Positions 5,101 to 39,343 of a stretch of DNA of 43,967 bases are shown one piece after another. Made by a program: the position numbers and the translations under genes. The stretch's first letter is position 1. Each line of letters opens with the position of its first letter. A model generated the notes under the pieces. That model saw only the letters and a list, made by a program, of their open reading frames with translations, did no database searches and was not told the origin of the DNA. This DNA is from Lentimicrobium sp. L6 (GTDB lineage Bacteria; Bacteroidota; Bacteroidia; Bacteroidales; UBA12170), in assembly GCF_013166655.1 (NCBI RefSeq), contig NZ_JABKCA010000049.1, positions 1 to 43,967 of the forward strand. The letters run 5' to 3'.

Positions 5101-5664
5101 TTCAATATTGTGATGAACCATTAATTCTTTACTTATGGCATTAAATTGGAAAGGTGAAATGGCAATTTGCAAGAATTGCATTCCTCTAATTTCTGATTGC
5201 TCAAAACTTGCAATGCTGCTTGGGTAAAATTCGTTTTTTTGATATTGAACTCCTTTTTTAGCCTTTATACTTTTTTGGGTGTCGAAAGGAATTGGAGCAT
5301 TTGGAGCTAAATTAATACTTTCAATTATTTCTGATTGCGTGCTTTTAATAGCCAAATGAGGAATGGCACCATCGGGAATTAAAATTGATCTACTAAAGAA
5401 AGGAAGCTCGGGAGCCCCTTCAAGGCCAGGAACTAAACTTTCTTGGAATATTACTTTATTGAAATTCTCTCCATCAACTTCAGCTTCAATAAGTGTAAAC
5501 TGATGAATATTAAAGCTTAAGTTTATAACTTCTTGTTTTGAGGAATTAATAATTAATCCTTCTTTACCTTTATTTGCGTCATAAGTATATTGCTGTGCTT
5601 GAAGAAATAAACCAATACTTAAAAATGAAAATATAAAAGTAAATTGTTTTAAAAAATGACTCAT
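2143..5664 (-). CDS. Secreted C25 (gingipain-type) cysteine peptidase with type IX sorting domain
   Basis: The 1173-aa precursor begins with a Sec signal peptide (about 1-23, ending at LQA-Q). A region like the gingipain propeptide follows (about 25-200), then the peptidase C25 domain (about 240-590). The catalytic pair is visible as His487 in HRDHGNYNG and Cys520 in INCQTGQF, followed by ENCFAEKF as in gingipains. After that come beta-sandwich repeats (640-1080) and a C-terminal sorting domain of about 75 aa with LYPNP, typical of type IX secretion cargo. It is therefore expected to be exported to the cell surface or medium. Sequence cannot tell Arg from Lys specificity. The start was chosen at 5664 rather than an ATG 39 nt upstream because it begins the signal peptide directly and a -7-like box lies between the two. 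It appears to be a single-gene unit, convergent with menA. Confidence 0.85.
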   Translation of the reverse strand: MSHFLKQFTFIFSFLSIGLFLQAQQYTYDANKGKEGLIINSSKQEVINLSFNIHQFTLIEAEVDGENFNKVIFQESLVPGLEGAPELPFFSRSILIPDGAIPHLAIKSTQSEIIESINLAPNAPIPFDTQKSIKAKKGVQYQKNEFYPSSIASFEQSEIRGMQFLQIAISPFQFNAISKELMVHHNIEIEISLSQSKGTYGEDRFRSPFWDQILSDLTYNIDDIPAIDYSKRMNTTKEEGCEYLIVVPDNIDFLPWADTIKKFRNEQGIHTKIMTVDEIGGNDIENINSFFEEVYDNWDPVPSAVLLMADYSEDENGITSNSWTHPYEGTYISDNYYADVTGNNLPDFVFARMTGRSYEEFEVLVHKFVNYERNPPTLESFYNEPITALGWQTERWFQICSETVGGYMRTVLGKNPTRINAIYEGNPTIDPWSTASNTSSVLGYFGPNGLGYLPATPGELGNWTGGTETDVINALNAGAFILQHRDHGNYNGWGEPDFNTNNINSLTNADLLSHVFTINCQTGQFNEGENCFAEKFHRHENGGALSLTAPTQVSYSFVNDALVWGLYDNMWPDFMPDYGGNLIPERDFRPAFGVASGKYFLSSTNWASNSMKTITYRLFHHHGDAFNTVYTEVPIENPVAYEAGITTSTTNIQVSGENGSLIGLSVDGELISNGFIEDGIANLTIPNQNEGTIIKIVITKQNYYRHEGEILVVPSEGAYVMKTSYTINDETEDGIVAYNETVDLDFIVKNIGSADAENVIISLLTDDSYITITSSEYSVGNLSSGEEINITDAFSFNTSVDIPDNHNVEFTFSATDGNSIWESTFKIKVFAPSLEFSVISFEETEGNGNGYLDAGESATGIIEIKNNGHMKLPAGSISISPNSEFITLNSGNSNFEQIEIGETLAATFEIITDVSAPIGYIANIIFELDANPFTIQNELYFNIGIIVENWESENFDSFNWTNTGDFEWTIADNYTVDGDFSARSGEISDNQSSILSLEYELIADNEISFYLQVSSEENHDYLNFYIDDYLVSAWSGLVLFEQFMFPVTEGIHEFKWEYMKDETGESGLDAAWLDFIILPPGNPVILGNEDISSSKNNNLAQLYPNPISEVLNIKLKSEEEIEYRIFNTMGQLIESGSNSSSFIINTHLFKPTTYYIQLLNNKGDQQIIPFIKL

Positions 5665-5691
5665 AGAGGTAAGTTTGTGTGTTTGAATGCA

Positions 5692-5699
5692 CAAATCTA
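5692..5699 (-). promoter_or_regulatory. Candidate -7 box of the C25 protease gene
   Basis: TAGATTTG on the minus strand fits TAnnTTTG and sits 27 nt upstream of the chosen ATG, leaving a leader of about 20 nt. It supports the downstream start, since the alternative ATG at 5703 would lie upstream of the promoter. No clear -33 box. Confidence 0.35.
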
Positions 5700-5754
5700 A
5701 CAAAAATGACTAAGAATCCCCCCGATAGTTCAGACTCTTAAGTATTTATTTTGA

Positions 5755-5826: not shown

Positions 5827-8800
5827 TTATCTTGTAAAACAACATCTAAACGATTTGTTATTACTCATATCTTCTGTACTTGCATCATTACATGAGCCGT
5901 TACCTACTACAGTTGCTGTAGGAGATGCACCAGGTTGACCAGTATTTAACCATTCCCAGTCATTGGTCATATTAGTAGTACCACTGCCTGACTTCTGACA
6001 TGTGTAATACCATTCGTCCCAAGTGCATAAACGGGAATCTTGATCACCACATAGTTTTGAAGCATCCCACCAGGTAATTGCACTTCTTTCATTAACTTCT
6101 ATACAGAACTGTTCATTGATTGCCGACCAATCTCCAGCAGGGCAATCTCTTAAACTCGTTCCAGCAGGACCAATTGGTCCAGTGGGTCCTTGAGGACCTG
6201 TGGCACCATCAATTGTCATGATACTCCATGTACTTCCATTATATATGAAAGAAGCTTTCAATACGATATTATAATAAGCATCGTTTAGACTTGGGTTTGC
6301 AGGATCTCCTGCAGCTAATCCTCGCCAATTGATACTAGTGCCATCTGCTCCTGCAGGACCTGTATTTCCATCTGGTCCCTGAGCACCAGTTGCTCCAGTA
6401 GCACCAACACTTCCTTGTGGTCCAATAGGACCTTGGATTCCTTGAGGCCCAGTAAAATCTTCGCTAAGGAATGTAGTTCCATCTGTATAGGTTATAGTGA
6501 AAGTTCCATTGCCATTATTTACAGTTGATTGGATCCCAAGCCCTGTATTTCCAATTGGTCCTACGACACCTTGGGGACCAATAGGTCCTTGTACACCTTG
6601 AGGACCAGTTAGATCATCACTTATAAAAGTATTCCCATCAGTATAAGTTATTGTAAATGTTCCATTACCATTATTAACAGCAGATTGTATTCCCAAGCCT
6701 GTGGCACCTGTTAATCCAGCAGGTCCTTGGGTTCCAGTGACTCCTGTAGGTCCTTGAGGACCAGTTAAATCATCACTTATAAAAGTATTCCCATCAGTAT
6801 AAGTAATGGTGAAAGTTCCATTTCCATTATTAACAGCAGATTGTATTCCTAAGCCTGTAGCTCCAGTTAATCCAGTTGGACCTTGGGTTCCAGTGGCTCC
6901 TGTTGGTCCTTGAGGACCCGTAAAATCATCACTAATGAAAGTTGTTCCATTAGTATAGGTAATAGTGAAAGTTCCATTTCCATTATTTATAGTGGATTGT
7001 ATTCCAAGTCCGGTAGCTCCAGTTGCTCCTGCTACACCTTGCGGTCCAACAGGGCCTTGTACGCCTTGAATACCTTGTGGTCCTGTTAAATCGTCACTAA
7101 TAAATATAGTTCCATTTGTATAGGTAAGAGTGAAGGTCCCATCTCCGTTATTTATAGCTGATTGTATACCTACTCCATCCGTTCCAGCAGGCCCTGTTGA
7201 ACCACTTTCTCCTTGAGGACCTTGTGGTCCTTCTTGTCCAATAATAGAAGAAATATCTAGTGTGTTTCCAGAACTTATACTTAATGAATTTCCATCTAGA
7301 CTTAAATACTGATTATCTGATGAAGTGATATCTAAGGTTTTGGTGGCAGGATTAAAAAATAAATTCGTCGCACCTGCTCCATTAATTTGCAATTGCTCTC
7401 CTAATTGAACCTCCCCAGAGTTTCCATGATCATCGTTTATTGTAATGGCAGAATGCTCTAATTTTTCATTAGTCACATTGGCATCGGCAATTTTATTAGT
7501 GATGATAGAGGCGGGGTTTAATATCATAACTCCAGTATTTGTTAATTGCGCATCGCCACTCAAATTAACTCCTGTAGCTATATTACTATTATTACCAATA
7601 AATATTTTTCCATTTTCTAGGCTTGGGTCTAAACCTCCTCCAGCTAATCCATTGATTTGATTCTGGAAGTGGGTACTATCTGTTATATTTTTGTTGTATA
7701 AAATTTGAATGGAGTCACTATTAACTGCATCTCGGTAGATGGCACGTGTTATTTCGGCTTGCAAAGAAAAATCTAAAGCATTTATTTGATTTTGAAAGCT
7801 TGTACTGTCTTCAAATATATTTAGTTGATTGATTAAAATCTCTTGAGTGTTGGCAGAAATACTATTTGAATTTTGCAATTCAGCTGAAATAGCTCTTGTA
7901 ATTTCACCCAAAATAGAATTGGTATTGGCATCTATTAATTGTTTGAAATATAATGAATCACCATCGTATGAATTCTGAAGATTAGCAATAGCATCTGTAT
8001 TGATTTGAATATTACTATTATTGATGGCTTCAGACATTATTGCACGAGTTACTTCTTGTAATATGGCATTTTGATTGGCATCGATAAGTGATTTGAGGTA
8101 AATACTGTCAGAAATAATTTTAGAGGTATTATTATCGATGAGGGATTGAAAGTAAAGACTGTCACTTTCAAATGAAATATTATCAAATAGATCTTGGAAA
8201 TATAAACTGTCGCTAATAATTTGGATGGCATTCTGGTTGATAAGTTCTGCCAATTCAGTTTCAGCTCCAATGGCTCTATTCATTTCTTCAATGATACTCA
8301 GATCTAACAGCTCAAGAGCTTCATCTATACTCTGGAAATTTGACTCAAAATACAAACTATCGACTTTTATTTTTGAAATAAGTTCTTGAATTTCTTGAGA
8401 ATTATCGAAAAAACTTAAATCAATACTTCCCCCTTCTTGAAGAAGGCTTAGAATATTCCCTTCCAATTTTATTTTTTGTAGTTCGTTGGTATTGCTAGTA
8501 TCCACTACATTACCAGCAACAGCAGCATAACTAGCCATAGGTACAGATAATAATTGGGAAGTTCCCATCAGTACCCAGTTAGTACCTCCTTGGGGGTCTA
8601 TACTCACTTCAATAAAATGTTCACCAAATCCCCAATCGATATCATTAAATGAACCTTGAGTCATTTCACCATTACCTACTTCAATGTTGATTAGTCCAAA
8701 ACTATTGGTAGTCACAAAATGAGCTTCTAAATAATCAGCTGCATTTTCGCTAGTTATTTTAATTTGAATACTTACGTCGGCATCAGCGATAGGATAGCCA

Positions 8801-8907
8801 GCAGCATCACGAGCCACAGCTTGATATTTAAATGCCTGAGTATTTTGTCCAAAAGCAATGATTTGCAAGAGGAGCAATAAAAATAGAGGTATAGCTTTAT
8901 ATTTCAT
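5827..8907 (-). CDS. Collagen-like, coiled-coil stalk surface protein with Cys-rich C-terminal head
   Basis: The 1026-aa secreted protein has five zones. A signal peptide spans 1-20. A domain at 22-135 (FKYQAVARDAAGYPI...) is one I know from Bacteroidota fibre-like proteins. A helical zone at 180-420 has recurring DSLYFQSLID-type and EITRAI units, suggestive of a trimeric coiled coil. A collagen zone (557-916) has Gly-X-Y blocks broken five times by an insert beginning GIQS at 580, 635, 687, 738 and 791. The C-terminal domain (920-1026) has eight Cys (922, 935, 953, 961, 970, 1006, 1022, 1023) and LCTWDEWYYTCQ, recalling lectin or sulfatase-modifying folds. No type IX tail is seen (it ends CCFTR). 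The gene follows a small type IX-sorted protein by 31 nt, probably in one operon. Adhesion or surface-fibre function is inference; no enzyme activity is claimed. Confidence 0.75.
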   Translation of the reverse strand: MKYKAIPLFLLLLLQIIAFGQNTQAFKYQAVARDAAGYPIADADVSIQIKITSENAADYLEAHFVTTNSFGLINIEVGNGEMTQGSFNDIDWGFGEHFIEVSIDPQGGTNWVLMGTSQLLSVPMASYAAVAGNVVDTSNTNELQKIKLEGNILSLLQEGGSIDLSFFDNSQEIQELISKIKVDSLYFESNFQSIDEALELLDLSIIEEMNRAIGAETELAELINQNAIQIISDSLYFQDLFDNISFESDSLYFQSLIDNNTSKIISDSIYLKSLIDANQNAILQEVTRAIMSEAINNSNIQINTDAIANLQNSYDGDSLYFKQLIDANTNSILGEITRAISAELQNSNSISANTQEILINQLNIFEDSTSFQNQINALDFSLQAEITRAIYRDAVNSDSIQILYNKNITDSTHFQNQINGLAGGGLDPSLENGKIFIGNNSNIATGVNLSGDAQLTNTGVMILNPASIITNKIADANVTNEKLEHSAITINDDHGNSGEVQLGEQLQINGAGATNLFFNPATKTLDITSSDNQYLSLDGNSLSISSGNTLDISSIIGQEGPQGPQGESGSTGPAGTDGVGIQSAINNGDGTFTLTYTNGTIFISDDLTGPQGIQGVQGPVGPQGVAGATGATGLGIQSTINNGNGTFTITYTNGTTFISDDFTGPQGPTGATGTQGPTGLTGATGLGIQSAVNNGNGTFTITYTDGNTFISDDLTGPQGPTGVTGTQGPAGLTGATGLGIQSAVNNGNGTFTITYTDGNTFISDDLTGPQGVQGPIGPQGVVGPIGNTGLGIQSTVNNGNGTFTITYTDGTTFLSEDFTGPQGIQGPIGPQGSVGATGATGAQGPDGNTGPAGADGTSINWRGLAAGDPANPSLNDAYYNIVLKASFIYNGSTWSIMTIDGATGPQGPTGPIGPAGTSLRDCPAGDWSAINEQFCIEVNERSAITWWDASKLCGDQDSRLCTWDEWYYTCQKSGSGTTNMTNDWEWLNTGQPGASPTATVVGNGSCNDASTEDMSNNKSFRCCFTR
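6160..7239 (-). repeat. Internal repeats coding the collagen-like region
   Basis: Codes residues 557-916. Five units of about 51-55 codons each join a collagen block (GPQGPTG-like) to an insert of the form GIQSAVNNGNGTFTITYT. The third and fourth inserts (687 and 738) are identical in protein through DLTGPQG, and their DNA is nearly identical, for example a shared stretch near 6615 and 6770. Such direct repeats allow copy-number change by recombination. Confidence 0.8.
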
Positions 8908-8938: not shown

Positions 8939-9424
8939 TTATTGTTTAATAATTTTGAAAGTTTTAGTTTGTTGACCAAATACTATTTTCAAAATATAAT
9001 GAGATCTTTCAAAAGATTGAAGGTTCCATTGAATGATGTTATGGCTAGATATTTCTTTTTCTTCTTTTATTAATCGGCCATTGGCATCGAAGAGTTGAAC
9101 AAGGCAATTTTCATTGATTTGTTTTTCAGTATTAATTTTGATATTGACAAAATTGGGAGTAGGGTTAGGGTAAATATCTACTGATACATTATCTAATTTT
9201 ATTTCATCAATAGCAGTAATAATATATAAATCCTGATGAAATCCTTGGGTTAAAATGTAATTTCCTTCAAATGTAGCAATGACAGGTTCCCCAAGAGTCC
9301 AACTTAAAGACACATTCCCATTTTCAAAATGATCACCTGCTGATGCAATAACTTCTGGACTAAGTTGTTGACTATAAGAATTTAATCCAAAAATTACAAA
9401 TACGATTATAATAATTTGTTTCAT
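8939..9424 (-). CDS. Small secreted protein with type IX C-terminal sorting domain
   Basis: A 161-aa precursor with a signal peptide (about 1-19, ending SYS-Q), a short unique part of about 60 aa (SAGDHFENGNVSLSWTLGEP) and a type IX sorting domain from about residue 82 (YPNPTPNFVNIKI to the end). The unique part resembles a small region often found before sorting domains in Bacteroidota and has no known activity. A second in-frame ATG lies 6 nt upstream; the chosen one starts the signal peptide directly. It is the first gene of a unit with the collagen-like gene, so the two products may work together at the surface. That is inferred from spacing only. Confidence 0.7.
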   Translation of the reverse strand: MKQIIIIVFVIFGLNSYSQQLSPEVIASAGDHFENGNVSLSWTLGEPVIATFEGNYILTQGFHQDLYIITAIDEIKLDNVSVDIYPNPTPNFVNIKINTEKQINENCLVQLFDANGRLIKEEKEISSHNIIQWNLQSFERSHYILKIVFGQQTKTFKIIKQ

Positions 9425-9534
9425 GATCATTTGATTTTAATTTCAGTTTCACTCATCATTAGCTGTTTCTACGCAGAGCTATTGAAAATGTTACTTGTTT
9501 GGCGTGTTTTTGAGTTCTCATCCATCAAGCCTAA

Positions 9535-9627: not shown

Positions 9628-11457
9628 TTATTGAGCGATATACGACCAAGTAAGCGCATTAATATCAACTGTAAATTCATAAGAACCAGCAGCAGGAACT
9701 TCTAAGTTTCCAGCACTAGGATCGATAGATAAAGTACCATCTGTATCACCAGCTCCATAATTTGTGCCATCCCAAGAACCTTCAGAGGTAAACTTGAAAA
9801 TAAGTTCATCACCAGTAATATCAACTATACCTACGAAAATACCATCAGCATTATCATCAGTTATTGTAGGTGCTGTTGCAGGATCCCATCCTTGATGAGC
9901 ACCAGGAACATATAACATAGCTACAGGAGCATCAGAAACTACAGAATAGGTCATGTCATTTGTATTAACAGTGATAACATAAGTACCATCTGCTTCAACA
10001 GGGATTGCAGCAGGATCTGTACCAGTACCATCATTAACAGCAAGTTCACCAGCATTAGCTCCCATACCATATTGTGGTTGCCATTGACCAAGAACTGAAA
10101 TAAACTTGATACCTTCACCACCAGCAATTAAATCAGCAGTGAGAGTGTATACTCCACCTGTTCCATTAAATGGAATAGCAACAGTATTATCCCAACCTGC
10201 AGCACAACCATCACCTAACATATAAAGTTCTGGATCAGTAGTACCTGCAGATTTAACTGTAAGTGTATAAAGTTCAGTTATAGCATCAATTTCTAATACG
10301 AAATCATATGTTCCATCAGCAAGAGGAACAAAGTTTCCATCACCATTACCTTCGAAATCAGCAGCAGCAGTACCAGCCATTGTTACATCTGGGAAACCGA
10401 TTGATTTACCATTCCAGTCTTGACCTTCTCTAATTTTGAAAGAACCAGCAGTAGTTACTTCAACACCTTCATAAGTCCATGTGTAATTTGTTTCATCTAC
10501 AGCAGGAACAGAAGTAAGAATAGTAACATCCCAGTTATGTTGCTCTCCACCAACTACAAGACCGTCACCAACTAAACCTAGTTCAGTAGCAGAATAGTCA
10601 ATAGTTTCCAAGTCACCAGTTTTAACCATAGTAGCTACAGTACCACCAGTTAGAGACCAAGTTACTGTGATTGTATATTTACCAGGAGTATCATTAACAA
10701 TATTATCTCCACCAGGAACTAATGCATTAACAGCACCACCATAGTTAGAGTTAACTTTGATACCAGCATTTCCATCACCAAGATCAAAATCGGGGCTTAA
10801 GATAACTTTCCAACCATTAGAATAACGGAATTTGAAATCAGCTTTAGTCATGACGATGTCAGTACCTGAGAAAGTCATAGTATTAAGATCGAAAGTAGCA
10901 TCTAATTGAGTACTTCCACCCCATCCACCAGGAGTAGCAGCACCAATAACACCCCAAACCACTTTAGCTACAGTTACAACTCCCAATTCTGAGTCATAAG
11001 CAATATGGTATAAACCATCTTCAGATACTGTGAAAGGTGTAGTTGATTCAACTAAAGAACCACGATATAAACCTAAAGTAGGCTCATCACCATCAAGGTC
11101 TGCTTCAGCAACCATTCCGAAATCAGCACCAGGACCATAAATAGTCTGAGTAGCACCATCAACAGTAATAATATTGAATCCTTCAGTACCACCTTTAATA
11201 GCAACATAAAGATCCATTAATTCTGCTCTATCTTCTTGTAAAACTTCGTTACGAGTGATAGCCATTTTACCTTTAGTATCGAAATCAACTAAGGCTGTTC
11301 CAGCACCTTTAACATAAGTTCCATCCAATACGATTACTGGAGGAGTATCATTTGTATCATCGTCATCATCTTTGGTACAGGATGTACTAATTAATGCGAA
11401 TGACATTAACATTACCCATGCGATATGGGTTAATTTGAAAAGATTATTCTTTTTCAT
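9628..11457 (-). CDS. susE: SusE/SusF-like outer-membrane alpha-glucan-binding lipoprotein with five modules
   Basis: A 609-aa lipoprotein. The signal peptide ends at lipobox Cys27, followed by TKDDDDDTND, an acidic stretch that in Bacteroidota marks export to the outer face of the outer membrane. The rest divides into about five beta-sandwich modules: 45-165, 167-285 (WGVIGAATPGGW), 292-402, 410-506 (LYMLGDGCAAGWDN, GQWQPQYGM) and 513-608 (LYVPGAHQGWDP). Repeated Trp/Tyr at equal places fits starch-binding modules of SusE/SusF. It has no visible catalytic motif and would hold glucan for SusC/SusD. It is last in susC1-susD1-susE1, 69 nt after susD1 and before a terminator. Two of its modules match the extra modules inside SusD2. 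The exact polymer bound cannot be read from sequence. Confidence 0.85.
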   Translation of the reverse strand: MKKNNLFKLTHIAWVMLMSFALISTSCTKDDDDDTNDTPPVIVLDGTYVKGAGTALVDFDTKGKMAITRNEVLQEDRAELMDLYVAIKGGTEGFNIITVDGATQTIYGPGADFGMVAEADLDGDEPTLGLYRGSLVESTTPFTVSEDGLYHIAYDSELGVVTVAKVVWGVIGAATPGGWGGSTQLDATFDLNTMTFSGTDIVMTKADFKFRYSNGWKVILSPDFDLGDGNAGIKVNSNYGGAVNALVPGGDNIVNDTPGKYTITVTWSLTGGTVATMVKTGDLETIDYSATELGLVGDGLVVGGEQHNWDVTILTSVPAVDETNYTWTYEGVEVTTAGSFKIREGQDWNGKSIGFPDVTMAGTAAADFEGNGDGNFVPLADGTYDFVLEIDAITELYTLTVKSAGTTDPELYMLGDGCAAGWDNTVAIPFNGTGGVYTLTADLIAGGEGIKFISVLGQWQPQYGMGANAGELAVNDGTGTDPAAIPVEADGTYVITVNTNDMTYSVVSDAPVAMLYVPGAHQGWDPATAPTITDDNADGIFVGIVDITGDELIFKFTSEGSWDGTNYGAGDTDGTLSIDPSAGNLEVPAAGSYEFTVDINALTWSYIAQ

Positions 11458-16195: not shown

Positions 16196-18040
16196 TTATT
16201 TGAACTGGATGATGGTAGATTCTTTTGCGGGAATCTCAAAATCATCGATAATAATGGTTTCTTTTGAAAAAATATCAGTCCCTTCAATATTAGCTATTTC
16301 CATTTCAGGAAAGCTAGAAGAATTCAACTTTCTACTTCTATTTCCTTTATTGATGATCACCATGATTTTCTGATTTTCATCATATCTAAAGAATACATAT
16401 AATCCACTGTCAGGGGCATAATGCATTAATTTCCCTTGATGGATGGTGCTACAGTTCTTTCTAAAATTCAATAAAGTTTTGAGGAATTCTTGTGCTTCTA
16501 AAGCTTTTGGACTTAAGTTTTCTCCAGTAAATGCATTCACTTTATCATTTGGCCATCCACCAGGAAAATCTGTTCTGATTTCACCATGATCGTGGGAAAG
16601 TGGATTTGACATCAGAATTTCAGTTCCATAGTATATTTGAGGTATTCCTCTTGTGGTGGCAAAGTAAGTTAATCCCATTTTATAGAGCTCAAAATCTTCA
16701 TTCAACTGCGTATAATATCTGTCCATATCGTGGTTGTCGGGAAAGATAACCAAGTTATTGGCATTTGGGTAAACATAGTCACAGGCAATGAGTTCGTATA
16801 GGTTATTTAAACCAGTATTCCATGCTTCCTCTTGTTTTAGGGACTCTACTAGTGTAGCCTGTAAAGGGAAGTCCATTAATGATGGAAGGCATGAGTTTAG
16901 GTTTTTGGTTTGTTCATTTCCTCTTTGCCATTTGGCGATAATAGAGGGGTTTAGGCTCCATTCTTCACCCACTATATTAAAGTTTGGGTATTCATCCATG
17001 ATGGCACAGGTATAGGCTGACATGAATTCTGCTCCTGGATAAGGATGGGTATCGTGACGGATTCCTCCGAGGTCGGCTACTTCAACCCACCAAATGCTAT
17101 TTTGTATCAAATTATCGCGTAGTAGGGGATGATCGCCATTTAAGTCTGGCATTTCACTAACAAACCAGCCTTTTTCGAATTTCGCTTTGTCTGAAGGTGC
17201 CACATAAGGATCATTTATAACTGTTCTGCGGTGATTGGTGATTTGATAAATATCTTTATCATTGATCCAGTCTTGGTCAGGCATATCCTTCATCCACCAA
17301 TGTTCGCTTCCACAGTGGTTCATGATTTGATCCATGATGAGTTTAATCCCTCTTTTATCTGCTTCTTTGGAGAGGAGGATATAATCATCAATTGTACCAT
17401 AGCGAGGATCTATTTTATAATAATCGGTTGTGGCATAACCATGATAAGAAGTACGAGGCATATGGTTAATGAGTATTGGATTCAGCCAAATGGCAGTGAA
17501 TCCCATTTCTTGAATATAGTCTAAATGATCGATGACACCTTGTAAATCTCCTCCATGCCTTGCTTGGTTATCTTTCCTATTGAGCTCATCTCCTAATTCA
17601 TCAAAGTGATCATTATAAGGATTTCCATTGGCAAAACGATCTGGAGTAATGAGATACATCACATCGGAGCTGTTGAAACCTTCTCGCTGAGCTGATTTTT
17701 CTCGTCTGTCTTTTAATTCATATTGTATAGAGGAGGCTATTTTATTATTCTTGAGAAAATTTATTTTAAAGGCATCCTCCGAAAACTTTTCATCGATAGC
17801 AATATAGATAAACAAGTAATTGGAGTTGTTGGTGAGCTCAGTTCTTAAGAGCTGAATCTGTTTATTCTCGATTTCAATTTTATGTTCAGCAATATTCTCT
17901 CCATAAAACATGATTTGTAATTCAGGATTATTCATGTTTTTCCACCAAAAAGGAGGTTCCATTCTTTCAACCAACTCTTCTTGGGCAAAACTATTTATTG
18001 AAAATATAATGGCTAGAATTAAGATTATATATTTCTTCAT
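16196..18040 (-). CDS. susA: Periplasmic GH13 alpha-amylase / neopullulanase (SusA-like)
   Basis: A 614-aa glycoside hydrolase family 13 enzyme. The signal peptide (1-19, SFA-Q) has no lipobox, so a periplasmic location is expected. An N-terminal beta-sandwich of the cyclomaltodextrinase/neopullulanase type (about 25-110) precedes the barrel. Catalytic residues are Asp330 in GGIRHDTHPY, Glu359 in IVGEEW and Asp438 in FPDNHD, with the invariant Arg328. The C-terminal part (about 530-614) is a small beta domain. It would cut maltodextrin brought in by SusC to maltose or glucose. It follows susE2 by 79 nt with a hairpin between, and is the last gene before a terminator. Exact product range is not readable from sequence. 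Confidence 0.88.
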   Translation of the reverse strand: MKKYIILILAIIFSINSFAQEELVERMEPPFWWKNMNNPELQIMFYGENIAEHKIEIENKQIQLLRTELTNNSNYLFIYIAIDEKFSEDAFKINFLKNNKIASSIQYELKDRREKSAQREGFNSSDVMYLITPDRFANGNPYNDHFDELGDELNRKDNQARHGGDLQGVIDHLDYIQEMGFTAIWLNPILINHMPRTSYHGYATTDYYKIDPRYGTIDDYILLSKEADKRGIKLIMDQIMNHCGSEHWWMKDMPDQDWINDKDIYQITNHRRTVINDPYVAPSDKAKFEKGWFVSEMPDLNGDHPLLRDNLIQNSIWWVEVADLGGIRHDTHPYPGAEFMSAYTCAIMDEYPNFNIVGEEWSLNPSIIAKWQRGNEQTKNLNSCLPSLMDFPLQATLVESLKQEEAWNTGLNNLYELIACDYVYPNANNLVIFPDNHDMDRYYTQLNEDFELYKMGLTYFATTRGIPQIYYGTEILMSNPLSHDHGEIRTDFPGGWPNDKVNAFTGENLSPKALEAQEFLKTLLNFRKNCSTIHQGKLMHYAPDSGLYVFFRYDENQKIMVIINKGNRSRKLNSSSFPEMEIANIEGTDIFSKETIIIDDFEIPAKESTIIQFK

Positions 18041-18119: not shown

Positions 18120-19253
18120 TTACTGAGGTGTTAAATTATAAGTTTGAGCAGCTAAATCTACTTCAATAAGGTAGGTTCCATCAGCAGGAACAGGAATATT
18201 CACTGGGTCGGGATCTGCTTCAGTTGGTCTGAAAGCTAAACTTCCACCATAACCAGAAGCTCCGTCTACAGTTCCCCATTGTGGCGCCCATTGACCAAGT
18301 ACTTCAACAAATTTGATGCTATTGGCAGTTAAATCAGCTGTAAGCGAGAATTTACCAGCTCCATCATTTGTCATTTCGGTAGCAGCAGTATTGTCCCAAC
18401 CAGCAGGTGAACCATCGCCTAATAAATATAGAGTTGAAGATGCAGCATAAACCTCATATGTAAGATTTGCAGTATCCACAACAATTCTATATAATCCAGC
18501 ATCTGTTGGACATGGCATAGCCACAGGATCTGCTACATCTTCTGTTGGACGGTAAACTAAGTTTCCATTCTCACCAGTTCCGGCATCATCAGTTCCCCAT
18601 TGAGGAGCCCATTGACCAAGAACAGAGATGAATTTGAAGAATAACCCTTCACCTCCTAGATTTGCTATAATGCCAAATTTACCATCAGCAATATGACTGG
18701 CTGGAAGAGCGTCTGTATTTGACCATCCGGGGTCTGTACCATCACCTAACATATAGATAGACTTAATTTTAATTTCAGAAGAATAAGGAGTAATACTAAG
18801 AGTAATGGTTTCAGAAACAGCAGATTCGCTAGTGTTGTTTGAAGTGATATTAGACTTCACACGGAAGTTTAAATTAGCAGCTTCATCAGCAGGGAAATTA
18901 TTGGTGAGAAGCAAAGTATTCATTTGTGCAACTGTATAGTTGATTTCCAATTCTTGGGTGTTTTCTAAGAATATAGGAGATTCAAAATTATTTGATGCTT
19001 CATCCATTTCCACAGTATAAACAGTATTTGCTAAATTATTGAGGTTGTATCCAGTAGCTTTCCATTGAAAGGCATCAAACATTTCAGAAGCATTAGCTTC
19101 CAATAGTACATGAGCAGTTCCGCTGCTGGGGCTTGTAAATACTGGAGCGGCTATTTGCTCTGTATTTAAGATAGGTTCTTTTTCTTCCTTTTCACAAGAA
19201 TACATCAGGAGTAAACTGAACAATCCAAGGTATAATATTGTTATTTTTTTCAT
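18120..19253 (-). CDS. susE: SusE-like alpha-glucan-binding outer-membrane lipoprotein (set 2)
   Basis: A 377-aa lipoprotein. The signal ends at lipobox Cys20 followed by EKEEKEP, an acidic surface-export tag. An N-terminal SusE domain (about 31-158, PVFTSPSSGTAHVLLEANAS) is followed by two similar binding modules (166-269 and 274-377). Both modules contain LGDG...GW and the aromatic motif GQWAPQWGT, the probable glucan-stacking surface. It has no catalytic motif. The start at 19253 was chosen because it opens the signal peptide and leaves a 19-nt gap to susD2; an in-frame ATG 57 nt upstream would overlap susD2. It works with SusC2/SusD2 at the cell surface. Its modules are related to module four of SusE1. 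Confidence 0.88.
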   Translation of the reverse strand: MKKITILYLGLFSLLLMYSCEKEEKEPILNTEQIAAPVFTSPSSGTAHVLLEANASEMFDAFQWKATGYNLNNLANTVYTVEMDEASNNFESPIFLENTQELEINYTVAQMNTLLLTNNFPADEAANLNFRVKSNITSNNTSESAVSETITLSITPYSSEIKIKSIYMLGDGTDPGWSNTDALPASHIADGKFGIIANLGGEGLFFKFISVLGQWAPQWGTDDAGTGENGNLVYRPTEDVADPVAMPCPTDAGLYRIVVDTANLTYEVYAASSTLYLLGDGSPAGWDNTAATEMTNDGAGKFSLTADLTANSIKFVEVLGQWAPQWGTVDGASGYGGSLAFRPTEADPDPVNIPVPADGTYLIEVDLAAQTYNLTPQ

Positions 19254-19272: not shown

Positions 19273-21468
19273 TTAGTATCCACTGTTTTGTGTAAGATTA
19301 GGGTTAGCACCTATATCTGTTGATGGAATAGGAAATAGATTATATTTTTCATCAACAGCAGTACCTGTAGCTACATTTCCTTTCCAATCCCAAAGATAAT
19401 TACCACTAGTGAATTTACCGAAGCGAATGAGGTCGGTTCTTCTGTGACCTTCCCAATACAATTCTCTAGCCCTTTCATCTAATAAGAAATCAAGAGTTAA
19501 ATCTGCAGCTGTAATGTTTTGAGAATCCTCACCAAAAGCTCTGGAGCGAACTCTGTTTACATATTCTACGGCTTTTCCTAGGTCACCATTACCACCTCTA
19601 ATAACAGCTTCAGCATACATCAAGTAGAAATCAGCCAATCTGAAGACAGCATAGTCATTATCTGGATAGGTTAAATCAGAACCAATACTTCCATCTCTAT
19701 TGATATTTCTAAACTTGGTGATGGCATAACCTTCAGTAAATTCAAAGATATTGTCAATCATTAATGTTTGACCATCAGCATGAAAAGCTGCACGAGAATC
19801 GTAAGAAGGAGCAGAGAATAATTCAACTAAATAAGTATAATCTGGAGCTCCAAGTTTGAGGCTGATTTTATAGGTTCCAGGAGCTGCAATAGCTATATTG
19901 TCTCCTCCCTCAGTTAGGATGCCGTCAGCACCAGTATCACCATAGTTTAGGTCCCAAGCATCATTAGCACGGAATTTAATTTCACCTTCTGCAAGGTCTG
20001 TAGTTAGTTCCCACATAGAAGTTTCGCTATTATAAACCATATCTTGGTCGGTATCCCATCCACCAGCAGTAGCAGAACCAATAAGTCCCCAATACGTATT
20101 TAATAAGGTATATGTTTTAGCAATTGTATCTACATTGATTTTATAGTATCCTGCATCGGAAGCAACAATATTTGCACCGCTTCTGTCTAAAGTTCCATCA
20201 GCATCATCATCACCCCAATCGTATGACCAGTCAGGATTAGTTGTAAATTTAAATTCTGTGCCTGCATCAGGGAAATTTAAGTATCCTTCATAAGTTCCAT
20301 CATCAAGTACTGAAGCCAATACAGTTTCAGTATTACTTGGGTCCCAACCTTGGTGTGAACCGGGTACATATAATAATGGATAGTCGTTTAACTGTGGAGT
20401 AGGTGATAGCTTTAATGTCTCCTCGGTAATCTCTGGGTAGAATTTCTTAACGAAAGCACTTGTTGTACGAGTTCCTCCCCATCCACCATCGATACCAAAA
20501 GCAGCAGGATCCATAGTTCCACCAACTGCAGCATGAATGATAAAGGTCATACCTCCCCATGTACGAGTACTTATTCCATCAAATGTAACTGGGAAAATAA
20601 CCTCAGAGCTTAAATGATTGTCAGCATTGAAATTATTGAAATAATTGTCTTCTAGTGAATAACCACCATCAATAATTTTACTACAATACTCAATAGCTTC
20701 AGTATTCATTTCAGAGTTGATATAAACATTTGCATTTAAATACAATTTGGCTAAAAGCGCCCAAGCAGCAGCTTTGTCAGCTCTTCCATATTCATTTGTT
20801 TTAGGATCGGGTAATTGACTTTCAATTGACTTTAATTCACCTTCAACATAAGCAAATAAAGCAGTTCTATCTATTTGTGTAGGTTGGAATGCTCCAACAG
20901 CATCGTTCTCAGTTACAAAAGGAGTGCTTCCATACATATCAAGCGCATGATAATAACTTAAGGCTCTTAAGTAACGAGCTTCTTGTCTATAGGCAATAAT
21001 ATTGGTTTTGTCATCTCCTGTGATATTTCTTTCAGATAATTTATCATCAGTAGATTCTCTAATGAACTCATTACATAAAGAAATTTGATAGAAAATACGA
21101 TTATACATGGCAGTAACAAATTCATTTGAAGCTGTCCAATCCATGTCATGATAATCTCTTAAGTTACCATCGTTCCAAGCAATAACAGCTTCATCTGTTG
21201 TTAACTCTTGAGCTTTCCAATATTGTCTTAAATAGGTTGAAAACCCTTCGTCGATACCTGCTATATCGGGTTGTCCGGCAGGACCTTCTTGTCCACTAAC
21301 AGAAAGGCCAGCATATAGTTTGGCCAGTACATTATAGTAATTAGCAGGGTTTTCATATACAGAGGCGGATGTGATCACAGTCTCATCCAAAGGGGTGGTG
21401 TCTAAATCTTTCATGCATGAAGAAAGACCAAGAGCCAATACTAATAATATGATATAATATTTTTTCAT
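19273..21468 (-). CDS. susD: Multimodular SusD with two inserted SusE-type glucan-binding modules (set 2)
   Basis: A 731-aa SusD/RagB lipoprotein, about 200 residues longer than usual. The lipobox is Cys18 (LSSC-MKDLD). The SusD part is normal at both ends: 20-350 with LRALSYYHALDMYGSTPFVT, and 556-731 with RLADFYLMYAEAVIRGG and ERARELYWEGHRRTDLIRFG. Between FVKKFYPEITEE and SYDSRAAF lie two modules. Module A is 365-455 (LLYVPGSHQGWDP) and module B is 459-549 (YWGLIGSATAGGWDT). Both resemble modules of SusE1 (LYVPGAHQGWDP at 513 and WGVIGAATPGGW at 167). The reading frame is open throughout, so it is a true insertion, not two genes. It should carry additional starch-binding sites on the SusC2 lid. 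The gene starts 18 nt after susC2. Confidence 0.92.
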   Translation of the reverse strand: MKKYYIILLVLALGLSSCMKDLDTTPLDETVITSASVYENPANYYNVLAKLYAGLSVSGQEGPAGQPDIAGIDEGFSTYLRQYWKAQELTTDEAVIAWNDGNLRDYHDMDWTASNEFVTAMYNRIFYQISLCNEFIRESTDDKLSERNITGDDKTNIIAYRQEARYLRALSYYHALDMYGSTPFVTENDAVGAFQPTQIDRTALFAYVEGELKSIESQLPDPKTNEYGRADKAAAWALLAKLYLNANVYINSEMNTEAIEYCSKIIDGGYSLEDNYFNNFNADNHLSSEVIFPVTFDGISTRTWGGMTFIIHAAVGGTMDPAAFGIDGGWGGTRTTSAFVKKFYPEITEETLKLSPTPQLNDYPLLYVPGSHQGWDPSNTETVLASVLDDGTYEGYLNFPDAGTEFKFTTNPDWSYDWGDDDADGTLDRSGANIVASDAGYYKINVDTIAKTYTLLNTYWGLIGSATAGGWDTDQDMVYNSETSMWELTTDLAEGEIKFRANDAWDLNYGDTGADGILTEGGDNIAIAAPGTYKISLKLGAPDYTYLVELFSAPSYDSRAAFHADGQTLMIDNIFEFTEGYAITKFRNINRDGSIGSDLTYPDNDYAVFRLADFYLMYAEAVIRGGNGDLGKAVEYVNRVRSRAFGEDSQNITAADLTLDFLLDERARELYWEGHRRTDLIRFGKFTSGNYLWDWKGNVATGTAVDEKYNLFPIPSTDIGANPNLTQNSGY
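19819..20406 (-). other. Inserted segment of susD2 coding two SusE-type binding modules
   Basis: Codes residues 355-550 of SusD2. Each module shows the GW-D...FKF/IKFR...W...GD.D..G.L pattern of tandem starch-binding modules of SusE/SusF. The order (LYVPG type, then WG type) is the reverse of that in SusE1. Boundaries are estimated from where similarity to SusD1 stops and resumes. Confidence 0.75.
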
Positions 21469-21486: not shown

Positions 21487-24462
21487 TTAGATATTTAATT
21501 TTAAGCCTAGTACGAAGTTTCTAGAGCGTGGATAAACATTATTATCAACGCCACCAAATACTTCAGGATCAAGACCAGAATATTTTGTAAGAACAAATGC
21601 ATTTTGCACTGTGAAAGATACATTAAGGTCTGATTTTTCACTAAAAAGTTTGCTAAATGTATATCCCAATCTAATATAATCCATTCTAAAGAAAGAAGCA
21701 TCTTCTAGATAGTAATCTGAGAAATATTCATAATTACTAAAGTTAGTTTCAAGAGCGTCTTGTGTTACATTTATTAAATACTGAGTGTTGTTATACATTT
21801 GACCAACAGCTCCAGTAGAAGAACGAACATTATTATAGACATAATTTCCAATGTTACCATGACCTGCAAAGCTCAATTCTAATTGTTTGTAAGTAAATCT
21901 AGAGTTGATACCAAATGAATAATCTGCTGTAGGTTTATGAACTCTATATTTATCATCATCAGTAATAGTACCATCACCATTTCTGTCTACATAAAGGCCT
22001 TGTATGGGTTTACCTGCTTCATCATAAACTTGTTCATAAACATAGAATGAATTCATTGGGTAACCAACAGTATGAATTTGAATATTATTTCCTACACCAC
22101 CACTGATTCCTCCGGTTGGAACGCCAATATAATCTGGATCATCATTTAGTGTTAATTTGGTGATTTTGTTTTCATTATAATTCATGTTTACACCTAATTC
22201 CCAATAAGTGTTTTGAGTAGAAATAATTCGTCCCGTTAAAGTAACTTCATAACCTTTGTTTTCCATAGAACCAATATTGGTTAAGATATAGTTAGACAAG
22301 TTTGATCCAGCAGGTACAGGAATGAAATTAATCATATCATCTGTGGTTTTCTCATAATATTCTAAGGAACCAAATATTCTATCTCTAGCAAAACCAAAAT
22401 CTAAACCAACATTAAGCGTTGTTGTTTCTTCCCATTTAATATCTGGGTCATAACCACTAGGACGTAAGGTATATACAAATTGATTTCCGAATTGATACAT
22501 AGCTGTCATTTCACTCCACATATATAACGGAAGGTAAGGATAATTAGATGTTCCAATATCTTGTTGACCTGTGACACCCCAACCTCCTCGTAATTTCAAT
22601 TGAGATATGGCATTCACATCTTTCAGGAATGATTCTTCATTAATTTTCCAAGCTAAAGCAACGGAAGGAAATATACCAGCTCTAGTATCCTTAGAGAATC
22701 TGGAAGAATTATCATTTCTAACTGTAGCAGTTAAAAGATATTTCTCGTTAAGAGTATAGTTTAATCTACCAAAGAAAGATATTAAATAACTTTCAGTTGG
22801 TCTAATTGGACCATCTACAATATCAGTTTGAGAGATATTACTGTTATATCTATAGTCGTTACGATAAAAATGCTGCCAAGAATAACCAGCTGTCACATCA
22901 AATTTTGATTTAATGGACTCAATAGTTTTAGTATAATTTAAGTAAAAATCTAAAGTATTGTTTCTTTTGGCTTGAGAATAGTGATTCATGGTACCACCAA
23001 TGAGGTTACCATCTCCATCAATGTCCCAAGAACTTCTTGCATTCATCGGAACATCTATTCTGCCTCTTGAACCACTAACATCGAAAGCCATATTCAGGTT
23101 GGCACGAAGTTCGGGTAAGAAATGGAATTTATAATCAGCCATAAAGTTTCCTAAATATCGGCTGACTTCTGAACGATCTTCTCTTTGTTCTAGCATTCCA
23201 ACTGGGTTAGCAGGAGCAATAGTTATTGGATTCCCATTATCTTGCAACCATTCCCAATACCCACCATAGGCGTTTCCTTCGTCTCGAACAGGTTGAGTAG
23301 GGTCAAATGTTACAGCATTACCTATAGCACCATTATCGGCAAATCGGGTTTCTGTAAACATAGTTTTTATATTGAAATTTAGTTTTAAGTAATCATCAAA
23401 GAGTGTAGGGCTTAATGAAACGGCTGCAGTAGTTCTTTTGTAATTAGAAGTATTTACAATACCATTTTGGTCCATATATCCTAGAGATACATAATAAGGT
23501 ATGTTTTCTGTACTTCCCTTTACGCTAACGGTGTGGTCTTGGCTAAAAGAATTACTCATGATTTCTTTTTGCCAATCGGTATTTGCAGTTCCTAATAAGG
23601 CCGCTTGAGTGGATTCCTCTCCAAAATAGCTTTTGATTTGGCTTCTGAATTGATTTGCATCAAGAGACTCTATATAGGCAGGAATAGTATTTACCGTAGC
23701 TTTTCCATTATAAGTCAATACAAAAGGAGCTCCCTTTGTACCTCTTTTGGTAGTCACCTGAATAACACCATTTGAAGCTCTAGAACCATAAATAGCAGTA
23801 GCACTCGCATCTTTTAGTACCGTCATAGATGCAATATCATCAGGGTTAATAGTACTTAAGGGATTACCTAATCCAGAAATTCCATCATTATCCACTGGAA
23901 TACCATCGATGACCACAAGTGGATCATTGTTTGCACTCATACTAGCACTTCCTCTAATTCTTATAGTGCTACCACCACCAGGTGCACCATCAGTAGTAAC
24001 TTGAACACCAGCAATTTTACCTGTAAGTAGTTCTTGCGGAGAAGTGATAACACCTTGGTTAAAGTCTTTTTCACCAATAGTGGCCACAGCTCCTGTTGCA
24101 TCCCCTTTTTTTACTTCACCATAACCAATAACTACAATTTCATTTAAAATCTCTGATTTGTAGTTCATGCTGACATTAATTCGAGTACCAGATACTAGAA
24201 TCTCTTGTTCCTCATAACCAATGTAAGTGAAAATTAATGTAGCACCTTCATTAACGGAAATAGAATACCTTCCGTCGATATCGGTAATGGTACCATTCAT
24301 AGTACCTTTTTCAAGAACAGTTACACCAATTAAGGTAATACCGTCTGATTCATCAATTATTGTCCCGTCCACAGTCGTTTTCTGACCATAAACCATAACT
24401 GAAAATCCAAATGCTAAAATTAAAAGGCATAAGGACCGTAGTTTTTGATAAATTTGTAACAT
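21487..24462 (-). CDS. susC: SusC-like TonB-dependent outer-membrane transporter (set 2)
   Basis: A 991-aa SusC/RagA importer, by chance the same length as SusC1 but clearly diverged. The signal peptide ends near residue 26 (MVYG-QK). The carboxypeptidase-like regulatory domain (about 30-105) has the GVTVLEKGT and DGRYSI motifs. The plug has IRIRGSASMS, PLVVIDGIPVDN and VLKDASATAIYGSRASNGV, then the barrel follows to the C-terminus. It is the first gene of susC2-susD2-susE2-amylase and diverges from the LacI regulator, with a LacI operator in the 193-nt shared upstream region. It imports alpha-glucan oligosaccharides, judging by the company of SusE modules and the GH13 enzyme. Confidence 0.94.
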   Translation of the reverse strand: MLQIYQKLRSLCLLILAFGFSVMVYGQKTTVDGTIIDESDGITLIGVTVLEKGTMNGTITDIDGRYSISVNEGATLIFTYIGYEEQEILVSGTRINVSMNYKSEILNEIVVIGYGEVKKGDATGAVATIGEKDFNQGVITSPQELLTGKIAGVQVTTDGAPGGGSTIRIRGSASMSANNDPLVVIDGIPVDNDGISGLGNPLSTINPDDIASMTVLKDASATAIYGSRASNGVIQVTTKRGTKGAPFVLTYNGKATVNTIPAYIESLDANQFRSQIKSYFGEESTQAALLGTANTDWQKEIMSNSFSQDHTVSVKGSTENIPYYVSLGYMDQNGIVNTSNYKRTTAAVSLSPTLFDDYLKLNFNIKTMFTETRFADNGAIGNAVTFDPTQPVRDEGNAYGGYWEWLQDNGNPITIAPANPVGMLEQREDRSEVSRYLGNFMADYKFHFLPELRANLNMAFDVSGSRGRIDVPMNARSSWDIDGDGNLIGGTMNHYSQAKRNNTLDFYLNYTKTIESIKSKFDVTAGYSWQHFYRNDYRYNSNISQTDIVDGPIRPTESYLISFFGRLNYTLNEKYLLTATVRNDNSSRFSKDTRAGIFPSVALAWKINEESFLKDVNAISQLKLRGGWGVTGQQDIGTSNYPYLPLYMWSEMTAMYQFGNQFVYTLRPSGYDPDIKWEETTTLNVGLDFGFARDRIFGSLEYYEKTTDDMINFIPVPAGSNLSNYILTNIGSMENKGYEVTLTGRIISTQNTYWELGVNMNYNENKITKLTLNDDPDYIGVPTGGISGGVGNNIQIHTVGYPMNSFYVYEQVYDEAGKPIQGLYVDRNGDGTITDDDKYRVHKPTADYSFGINSRFTYKQLELSFAGHGNIGNYVYNNVRSSTGAVGQMYNNTQYLINVTQDALETNFSNYEYFSDYYLEDASFFRMDYIRLGYTFSKLFSEKSDLNVSFTVQNAFVLTKYSGLDPEVFGGVDNNVYPRSRNFVLGLKLNI

Positions 24463-24655: not shown

Positions 24656-25663
24656 ATGAGTAGACACCCAATCACCATAAAAGATATAGCTAGAATTCTT
24701 AATGTCTCCGTTTCCACGGTGAGTAGAGCTTTAAAAGATCATCCGGATATTAGTAAAGCTACTAAAAAATCGGTGCAAGATATGGCTCGTGAACTCAATT
24801 ATCGGCCTAATGAAATTGCATTGAGTTTAAAGAATAGAAGAAGTAAAATTATTGGGATTATGGTACCTCAGTTGGTACATCATTTTTTCTCTTCTGTGAT
24901 TGAGGGTGTTGAGAATGTAGCCTATGATCAAGGCTATCAAGTTATGATTTATCATAGTGATGAATTATTAGAAAGAGAATTGCAATTGATTCAGTCTTTT
25001 ATGTCCTATAGATTGGATGGTTTAGTGGTTTCTATGAGTAAGGAAACCAAAGATTTTGCTCACTTTAATAAACTCTCACAACTGGGCGTCCCCATTGTGT
25101 ATTTTGATAGAGTTCCTGAAGGCGATTATAATAAAGTTTTATTTGATGATTATCAAGGTGCTTTTGATGCCGTTCAACATATGATAGATTGTGGATGTAA
25201 GAAGATTATTCATTTTGCAGCCTCCTCAAGTATGGATATTGGAAAAAAGAGAAAGCAAGGGTATATTGATGCATTGAAAAAGAATGGATTAGAGGTGAAT
25301 GATGCCTTTATTGTAGAATGTGATACCTATGAATGTGCTTTGAAATCTGCAGAGGATATACTCTATTTGTTTCCTGATTTGGATGGGATTTTTGCGGTTA
25401 ACGATTTAACAGCAATTGGAACGATGAAGCAATTGGTGAAAAAAGGCAAGAGAATTCCTGAAGATATTAAAGTAATGGGCTTTACTAATGAAACGAGTTC
25501 CGCTATTTATTCGCCAAGTTTGAGTACAGTGGATCAACAAGGTGTGCAAATGGGAGAGGAGGCTGCTAAACTCTTATTAGACAATATGGATGGGATAAAG
25601 CGTGCCATAACCAAAACCATCTCGGCTAGTTTAGTTTTACGAGAATCAACAGGAGTAAAATAG
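24656..25663 (+). CDS. LacI-family transcriptional regulator of the alpha-glucan locus
   Basis: A 335-aa LacI/GalR family regulator. The N-terminal helix-turn-helix is ITIKDIARILNVSVSTVSRAL (6-26), followed by the hinge region LNYRPNEIALSLKNRRS. A periplasmic-binding-protein-like effector domain (about 62-330) carries GIMVPQ, GLVVS, FDRVP and GIFAVNDLTAIG. The effector is probably a maltodextrin or related sugar, inferred from neighbours. It diverges from susC2 with a LacI-type palindrome in between. Matching sites lie upstream of susC1 and the cytoplasmic glucan block. Its stop is only 8 nt from that of the convergent mobA-like gene, with no terminator visible between. Confidence 0.92.
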   Translation: MSRHPITIKDIARILNVSVSTVSRALKDHPDISKATKKSVQDMARELNYRPNEIALSLKNRRSKIIGIMVPQLVHHFFSSVIEGVENVAYDQGYQVMIYHSDELLERELQLIQSFMSYRLDGLVVSMSKETKDFAHFNKLSQLGVPIVYFDRVPEGDYNKVLFDDYQGAFDAVQHMIDCGCKKIIHFAASSSMDIGKKRKQGYIDALKKNGLEVNDAFIVECDTYECALKSAEDILYLFPDLDGIFAVNDLTAIGTMKQLVKKGKRIPEDIKVMGFTNETSSAIYSPSLSTVDQQGVQMGEEAAKLLLDNMDGIKRAITKTISASLVLRESTGVK

Positions 25664-39100: not shown

Positions 39101-39343
39101 CTCTATATTACGACTAGCGAGAAAATCCCTAACCCCATTATAGCGTGGTTTTCCATCTACAAATGGGAGATAGTCTTTTACATAATCAAACTCCTGAAAA
39201 GGCTCACCAGTTTCTTGAGCTCTATCCATTAGGTATTCATCAAACATTTTTTTCCATGCTGCGGCATGAACTTCTGCTGTTTTAGTGATAACCCCATCTA
39301 GGTCGAAGATGATGGCATCGAAGTTGAATTTTGAATTTGACAT
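36197..39343 (-). CDS. Fused beta-phosphoglucomutase and GH65 disaccharide (maltose-type) phosphorylase
   Basis: A 1048-aa two-enzyme protein. Residues 5-245 are a HAD beta-phosphoglucomutase with Asp14 and Asp16 in FDLDGVI, SSSK near 140-143, Lys175 in GKPAPD and VVEDASSG. Residues 260-1048 are a glycoside hydrolase family 65 phosphorylase. It has the N-terminal super-sandwich (NGYFGNRGAMEE), the helical barrel with catalytic acid Glu747 in MGPDEFHE, and HGSSLSR near the phosphate-binding site. An inverting GH65 enzyme makes beta-glucose-1-phosphate, exactly the substrate of the fused mutase. The disaccharide is probably maltose given the starch locus; trehalose, kojibiose and nigerose are alternatives. 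No signal peptide, cytoplasmic. Single open frame. Confidence 0.9.
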   Translation of the reverse strand: MSNSKFNFDAIIFDLDGVITKTAEVHAAAWKKMFDEYLMDRAQETGEPFQEFDYVKDYLPFVDGKPRYNGVRDFLASRNIELEFGDVEDSIELVTVCGLGNRKNKAFNEVLDRDGVSPFDSTIELMHQMKEHNLRLGVASSSKNCRSVLKAAGVFDIVETIVDGTDAARLGLNGKPAPDIFTTAADNLGVSYDRAVVVEDASSGVAAGKAGNFGFVLGLAREHNIEELYRNGADVVVEDIEEIKLEGINKWFEDGLDKDNWSITYHEYEEAKEKSRESLLAVGNGYFGNRGAMEEVRADEKHYPGTYIASLYNTLESPIGDRMIPNEDFVNTPNWTLIEFKINDGEWWDYKTAEFEVYKKHLCLKTGLFSKNLIIKAADGKRFQIESKRMASMVRQHAGAQQYVFTPLNFDGKITFRIGIDGQIENRGVNRYNTLNQNHLEFISANATDEKLLVNVKTRQSNISVSQAIKHFAQTSDATKNHTFKSKVEYDGAYAYYEADLKEKQSFSIEKLLSIYSSHVVKKPETLALDQLNDLESFDTLFEESKAKWAEIWKDIDIQVEGDRMSQKLLRLHSYHMMLSASEFNTELDASVTARGLHGEAYRGHIFWDELFILPFYNIHYPEISKSLLMYRYRRLNKSREYAKENGYQGAMFAWQSGSDGSEQTQTVHLNPLSGKWGEDNSCLQRHVSLAIAYNVYEYFVATNDVKFMEEYGAEMFLEICRFWASKSSKNEETGKYSIDKVMGPDEFHEMYPDAKEGGLRDNAYTNIMVAWMLGKVKEITSKMDCSAEENVLLKIQLTYQEMLHWDDIAANLNIVISEKGIISQYDGYFDLKELDWKAYREKYTNIYRMDRLLKAEGKSADDYKVAKQADTLMTFFNLEKKEVDEIFENLGYKLPDNYLEKNLDYYLARTSHGSSLSRVVHAQLANIIDNEKLSWELYEDALGSDYVDIQGGTTGEGIHTGVMASTVMVALTNYAGINLHKEILEITPQLPKHWKTIKFNMVFRGVKFNINISKSEICITTNQNTTVIISGKEVSLKENIKEIINLV

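Follow-up and report, generated by a model that had tools for sequence, protein, structure and literature searches.

A SusD transporter lid with two SusE-type modules inserted at a loop where related proteins bear one or both

The locus described here raises the question of what a pair of SusE-type modules does in the middle of a SusD protein, and by which route it arrived there. The protein, SusD2, is encoded in a window of 43,967 nt (the whole stretch of DNA that was analysed). Translation of the plus strand gives many stops, that of the minus strand a 731-aa protein. The length given in the initial annotation, which named no strand, is thus borne out for the frame read from the minus strand. 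The features referred to in the following are:

24656..25663, plus strand: LacI-family regulator, divergent from susC2-susD2-susE2-GH13 (Pfam)
21487..24462, minus strand: susC2, TonB-dependent receptor, directly upstream of susD2 (Pfam Plug and TonB_dep_Rec_b-barrel)
19273..21468, minus strand: susD2, 731-aa SusD lipoprotein-like protein with a two-module insert (translation, Pfam, NCBIfam)
20431..21411, minus strand: SusD core, N-terminal part, residues 20-346 (alignments with 3jys and 3ck7, conservation, model)
19801..20430, minus strand: whole insert with linkers, residues 347-556 (alignment of relatives, length count)
20101..20400, minus strand: module A, residues 357-456, X25/SusE-type beta-sandwich (Pfam X25_BaPul_like, model, fold match)
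19813..20100, minus strand: module B, residues 457-552, SusF_SusE-type beta-sandwich with KFRAN..W motif (Pfam SusF_SusE, alignments, model)
19276..19800, minus strand: SusD core, C-terminal part, residues 557-731 (Pfam SusD_RagB, PDB alignment)
18120..19253, minus strand: susE2, directly downstream of susD2 (Pfam SusE N-terminal domain and two SusF_SusE stretches)
16196..18040, minus strand: GH13 enzyme with cyclomaltodextrinase N- and C-terminal domains (Pfam)
9628..11457, minus strand: susE1, multi-module SusE/F-type protein, the comparison sequence of the initial annotation (Pfam SusF_SusE, 4 stretches)

The gene order is LacI regulator, susC2, susD2, susE2 and GH13, followed by another susC-susD-susE set. 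The window further contains a GH13 gene with CBM48, two more GH13 genes and a GH65 gene. Judged from the sequence, the surroundings of susD2 appear to fit an alpha-glucan locus. The window also encodes a Peptidase C25 (gingipain-type) protein with a propeptide and a Por secretion tail (2143-5703), a 1026-aa protein with collagen-type triple-helix repeats (5827-8907) that adjoins a small Por-tail protein (8939-9430), and a 1048-aa protein in which GH65 domains are fused to a haloacid-dehalogenase-type domain (36197-39343).

SusD2 is a SusD protein whose core comes in two parts. Pfam places SusD-like_3 (PF14322) at residues 96-244 (34.3 bits) and SusD_RagB (PF07980) at residues 576-731 (124.7 bits), both above the curated cut-offs. 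Between these domains, X25_BaPul_like (PF22058) matches residues 370-433 (29.2 bits, cut-off 27) and SusF_SusE (PF16411) has its best stretch at 462-555 (50.6 bits, cut-off 27.5). The best matches among solved structures, which put the protein in the SusD fold, are 3jys and the SusD of B. theta. Both alignments consist of two pieces (38-346 and 556-731 for 3jys, 44-349 and 567-731 for B. theta SusD) that leave the insert without a match. The NCBIfam SusD model NF033071 scores 419.5 bits (E 1.5e-125) and does not reach its curated cut-off of 725 bits; we therefore assign SusD2 to the wider SusD family only, outside that narrow model. Its N-terminus reads ...LGLSSC, by eye a putative lipobox. 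According to Pfam, the SusE N-terminal domain (PF14292) is absent from SusD2 (P0001) and present in P0003. That is, the insert consists of modules of SusE type, and SusD2 is not itself a SusE.

The initial annotation had read residues 355-550 as SusE-type modules built into the SusD lid. As an observation this is confirmed, and the interpretation is supported by the Pfam matches, the split PDB alignments and the structure model. The borders were close, but the linkers on either side of the modules extend to residues 347 and 556. SusD1 (P0004) shows no SusF_SusE or X25 match in Pfam. The likeness to SusE1 holds as well (40% identity to SusD2 residues 364-455, E 4.6e-11). The module order described as swapped is swapped with respect to SusE1 but not in general: the adjoining SusE of relatives has the A-B pair in the order of SusD2, with 50-59% identity to the SusD2 insert.

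The model of the insert (pLDDT 93.6, pTM 0.87) predicts two SusE/F-type beta-sandwich modules and not an extended SusD loop. Its nearest solved folds are SusF and SusE (tied), followed by X25 starch modules. The model of the whole protein is moderate (mean pLDDT 76.6, pTM 0.66) and weak at the junction of core and insert, with low confidence (48-65) in the blocks 301-360; the linkers of the two predicted modules are weakly ordered. A single-sequence phmmer search of residues 351-559 against the PDB gave no match up to E 1. A 13-row profile of the insert matched BT3088 SGBPdex (E 2.5e-4 and 0.002) and gave one weak match (E 0.23), while a full-length SusE profile found BT3088 (E 2.7e-21) and the SusE structure 4fem (E 7.1e-20), where the 4fem alignment ends before the FRAN motif. 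The kinship of the insert to SusE/SusF is based on Pfam, the neighbouring genes and the fold. Within module B, the motif K-F-R-A-N..W is invariant in the 8 aligned SusDs that carry both modules (A+B), and also across one SusD and 12 SusE pairs. It is looser in inserts that consist of module B alone (B-only), e.g., KFRPDN or KFRLDD.

We also compared the core with the SusD of B. theta, whose starch-site residues we take to be R81, W96, W98, N101, Y296 and W320 (numbering fixed on the alignment with SusD2). Four of the six are kept or aromatic in SusD2, i.e., R81, W98, W304 for Y296 and W330 for W320, while W96 and N101 are replaced by I and G. The lid thus seems to retain most of its own starch site. 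Among 101 unique cores, with one gapped per column, R81 is R in 100/100, and W98 and W330 are W in 99/100 each; the three are conserved across all four architectures (no module, A, B, A+B), with B-only represented by 3 cores. Counted from W330, the linker begins 17 residues and module A 27 residues further on.

In the relatives aligned, the inserts lie at a common place, after an 'FVxKF'-like helix and before 'DxRAxFxTDGQ'. Between the core halves we count a median of 7 residues in SusDs without a module (range 3-86, n=64), 109 with B (99-114, n=23), 117.5 with A (116-149, n=8) and 211 with A+B (197-216, n=25; L125, cut at its N-terminus, was left out of these statistics). Most insert-free SusDs have a loop of a few residues here. 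Some distant ones are longer (55 residues in L025, 48 in L045 and L048, 42 in L047), and the SusD of B. theta has about 45-55 residues that do not align. That one or two modules recur at a single loop identifies this loop as a permissive site of the SusD lid. Two SusDs of family f173 (L156 8253-10124 and L157 7817-9688, genomes G1045 and G1014) carry some 85 residues in this loop to which neither module profile matches, and no separate Pfam domain is found there in L156, which alone was run; these are perhaps a further kind of insert.

How widespread is this architecture? Among 30 related loci, 29 were aligned with both SusDs of the window (L023, which is cut, was left out), and the insertion is found in 7 of them (L001-L006 and L015). 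Genomes of the order, class and phylum, in overlapping samples, were searched with a profile of 8 insert-bearing SusDs, where two candidates were scored per genome. In the order sample (393 genomes), at least 143 have a match at 1e-60 and at least 18 have an A+B SusD, 16 of them complete (G316 is cut by a contig end, G010 has an assembly gap). The class sample (395 genomes) has at least 84 with a match, with at least 5 A+B (the own genome and the cut G481 included) and at least 2 B-only cases. For the phylum (395 genomes), a match at 1e-100 is found in at least 85, with at least 3 A+B (own included), at least 8 with module A alone (A-only) and at least 3 B-only. Within the own genus, 4 of 11 genomes carry the A+B insert (G000, G002, G003 and G010, own included).

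Two families were covered more densely. At least 27 of 249 genomes of f173 have a matching ORF of 611-664 aa (up to 4 candidates scored per genome), and each of the 23 matching SusDs read out of these 27 has one B module; the family is probably Flavobacteriaceae, given that Salinimicrobium adjoins its member G961 in the SusD core tree. For f203, which belongs to another class, an ORF of 639-670 aa matches through module A in at least 12 of 92 genomes (up to 12 candidates per genome), and the 8 of 12 that were read are all A-only. Altogether, open frames were read for 57 SusDs with an insert (26 A+B, 8 A-only, 23 B-only) from several families and two classes, one with an assembly gap and one cut by a contig end. 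Trees and counts exclude L009 and L175 (near-copies), L023 (cut), and L029 and L030 (core score below 350), and L156, L157 and L158 are counted as having no SusE module. Two further candidates were dropped: the larger inserts suggested by long tblastn spans (up to 3.3 kb) turned out to be SusDs of no more than 742 aa, the remainder of the span being the downstream SusE, and an apparently shorter form (L004, 692 aa) shows unknown residues, i.e., an assembly gap, in the alignment.

Next to the insert-bearing SusDs, a SusE gene is mostly still present. A SusE-type gene follows directly downstream in 23/26 A+B, 8/8 A-only and 22/23 B-only loci (the one B-only miss is a contig end), and in 49/64 insert-free loci, where 3 of the 15 misses have no downstream frame in the stretch fetched. 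The adjoining SusE still has the A-B pair in 15/26 A+B loci. In the other 11, the window included, no adjoining SusE with the pair occurs in the stretch read, and 3 of these have no SusE-type gene directly downstream. That is, the pair is doubled in some loci and found in SusD only in others. By the profiles used, the A-B pair is missing from susE2 of the window (18120-19253), whose two modules belong to a third type (YMLGDG...FKFISVLGQWAPQWG), and the SusE of L001 and L002 is likewise without the pair. The SusE genes of L113 and L118-L121 end in sequence that resembles the third-type modules of susE2.

The origin of the modules was studied with trees from quick searches with SH-aLRT support only. 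In the SusD core tree (101 cores, insert removed), the four insert states need at least 10 changes, and a single clade of the 26 A+B cores is rejected (AU p 4.7e-5). In the pair tree, on the other hand, the 26 A+B inserts are all on one side and the 47 SusE pairs on the other (SH-aLRT 93). Inserts in one clade on cores that are not imply that the pair was either gained once and often lost, or passed between SusD genes. For the single-module inserts, the best matches are mostly SusE modules. The 8 A-only inserts are placed with 7 SusE A modules from the same family (support 94), and their best match outside the group is an own-family SusE in 7/8 cases and an A+B insert in 1/8. The first 3 B-only inserts fall together with 13 SusE B modules (95, starred), of which 6 belong to their own loci and 7 come from three others. 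In an enlarged B tree, where the earlier SusE rows of 14 loci were left out and 3 of these loci read anew, the 23 B-only inserts group (support 84) with 17 SusE modules, 15 of which belong to B-only loci. Their best outside match is a SusE module of a B-only locus in 22/23 cases and an A+B insert in 1/23, while the A+B modules have theirs in SusE throughout (26/26 for A, 26/26 for B). A GPD motif is found in 17/23 B-only inserts and 30/45 SusE modules of those loci, compared to 0/26 A+B inserts and 5/72 other SusE modules. This count replaces an indel that had seemed common to the B-only inserts and their SusE, and that failed with more sequences.

These observations can be read as repeated capture or as a single event. 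The latter would be one ancestral A+B insertion; the pair would then have been lost precisely in many cases, or reduced to A or B, and gene conversion with the adjoining SusE would give single modules the look of local capture. Such a history would place the 26 A+B inserts on one side of the pair tree, as found, and the AU tests on about 100 columns leave a single clade of all inserts unrejected (A p 0.129, B p 0.146; p 0.227 for the enlarged B set). It would, however, require many precise losses given the rejected clade of A+B cores and the number of state changes, and it sits poorly with a GPD motif that the B-only inserts have in common with the SusE of their own loci and that no A+B insert has, as well as with the grouping of the A-only inserts with the SusE A modules of their own family. 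We regard the single insertion as possible but doubtful. The better supported of the two is repeated capture at one loop, most likely from a SusE gene like the adjoining one. It is not proven, given the non-rejection in the AU tests, the quick trees and the single-module trees, where the A+B inserts are not one clade (8 changes for A, 3 for B). Holding them together in the A tree is not rejected either (p 0.162), and in the enlarged B tree they do form one clade, with a support of only 75. The stronger claim is that at least three Bacteroidota lineages independently took modules (A, B, or A+B) from SusE of their own kind, that the A+B cassette also came to sit on distant SusD backbones, and that the lid thereby has the function of SusE in cis, as a natural covalent SusCDE; we give this about even odds.

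With regard to function, our main reading, to which we assign a probability of roughly 70%, is as follows. A starch-type SusD lid would have received a tandem SusE-type (X25) pair in one loop, just past the helix downstream of a Trp in its own starch site, most likely from a SusE gene of the next-door kind, with repeats of the event at the same loop (A, B, A+B). The modules would bind alpha-glucan and, tethered by linkers, hold starch beside the SusC entrance. One pair per lid would fix the ratio at 1:1, and capture would depend less on docking of a separate SusE to SusCD, a step that the grafted pair could bypass in these bacteria. Chains might then be passed on to the site of SusD itself or to an enzyme at the surface. 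As far as sequence can tell, an extra starch grip on the lid is the likely role of the insert, by putative binding. The single-insertion history concerns the origin alone and is compatible with this function. We hold the main reading slightly less firmly because two of the six site residues are lost and B-only inserts conserve the FRAN motif less strictly. One setting also counts against it: in L123 (7566-11158 and 2727-4505), the gene after the A+B SusD encodes a GH53 protein (galactanase family) and no SusE; this is not an obvious starch setting. A gene on the opposite strand there codes for a protein with a Por secretion tail and SusF_SusE-type modules, of which the B profile counts five, and L124 resembles L123 by sequence and module profile.

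The modules could instead serve mainly in assembly, by gripping SusE, a GH13 at the surface or the rim of SusC, with sugar binding lost or unused. The SusE-type gene that still adjoins in most loci read may make extra binding sites seem redundant, and the lid from which the insert extends presumably moves. Yet the motif of module B is invariant in the 8 aligned A+B SusDs and in the comparison of one SusD with 12 SusE pairs, though looser in B-only inserts, and the 11/26 A+B loci without an adjoining SusE pair fit a move of the binding modules to SusD; we thus consider an assembly role unlikely. Loops can tolerate domain insertions, such that the insert might be a neutral passenger of the fold. 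For 57 open-frame SusDs from several families and two classes, in which the same module types and the same loop recur, this is very improbable. The window is one contig of a 195-contig genome, which brings an assembly artefact or chimera to mind. The same architecture in independent assemblies already refutes this for practical purposes, and B-only copies occur in single-contig genomes (G1224, G1275, G1138).

Whether the starch proteins SusE and SusF stay on SusCD or meet it only briefly is debated, and SusDs with built-in modules bear on this. In the passages available of PMC7618045, a mobile SGBP domain of the levan system is described as a glycan grappling device, the starch system is considered possibly more dynamic than the levan and dextran systems, the predicted starch SusC is said to offer no extra surface for more lipoproteins, and stable docking of SusE/SusF to SusCD is put in doubt. 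SusDs with SusE modules fix the ratio and the place of the modules covalently and are thus ready-made test objects for a glycan anchor on the lid. They also suggest that SusD length and domain content are worth checking when alpha-glucan loci are annotated. A full-text literature search, which covered titles and abstract openings and few subscription papers, gave no description of a SusD with inserted SusE modules, nor are such modules mentioned in the available parts of PMC11093988, PMC8211771, PMC10316084, PMC7618045, PMC11267923 and PMC9112005. The SusD lid family and the module family are known; their combination and the insertion hotspot did not come up in this literature search.

Compared to known systems, the SusDs of B. 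theta (3ck7-3ckc) and B. vulgatus (3jys) have no module at this loop, and the B. theta residues W96 and N101 are not kept in SusD2. The 'looped' alpha-glucan SusD of marine Flavobacteriia is likewise of starch type and has, close to the binding site, a loop of some 17 residues, i.e., a loop and not a folded module, and the available part of the report does not mention inserted SusE modules (PMC11093988). Sca5 X25-2 of Ruminococcus bromii (7rpy) belongs to a scaffoldin of another phylum, not to a SusD. The starch-binding domains of SusE (4fem, 4fch) and SusF (4fe9) sit on separate lipoproteins with an N-terminal domain of their own, whereas SusD2 has the module pair inside a SusD and lacks that domain. 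The closest precedent found is SusG with CBM58 in its domain B, from the part of PMC11267923 available to us: in it, as in SusD2, a carbohydrate-binding module interrupts an outer-membrane protein of the Sus system, but its host is an amylase and not the transporter lid, and its module is from another family.
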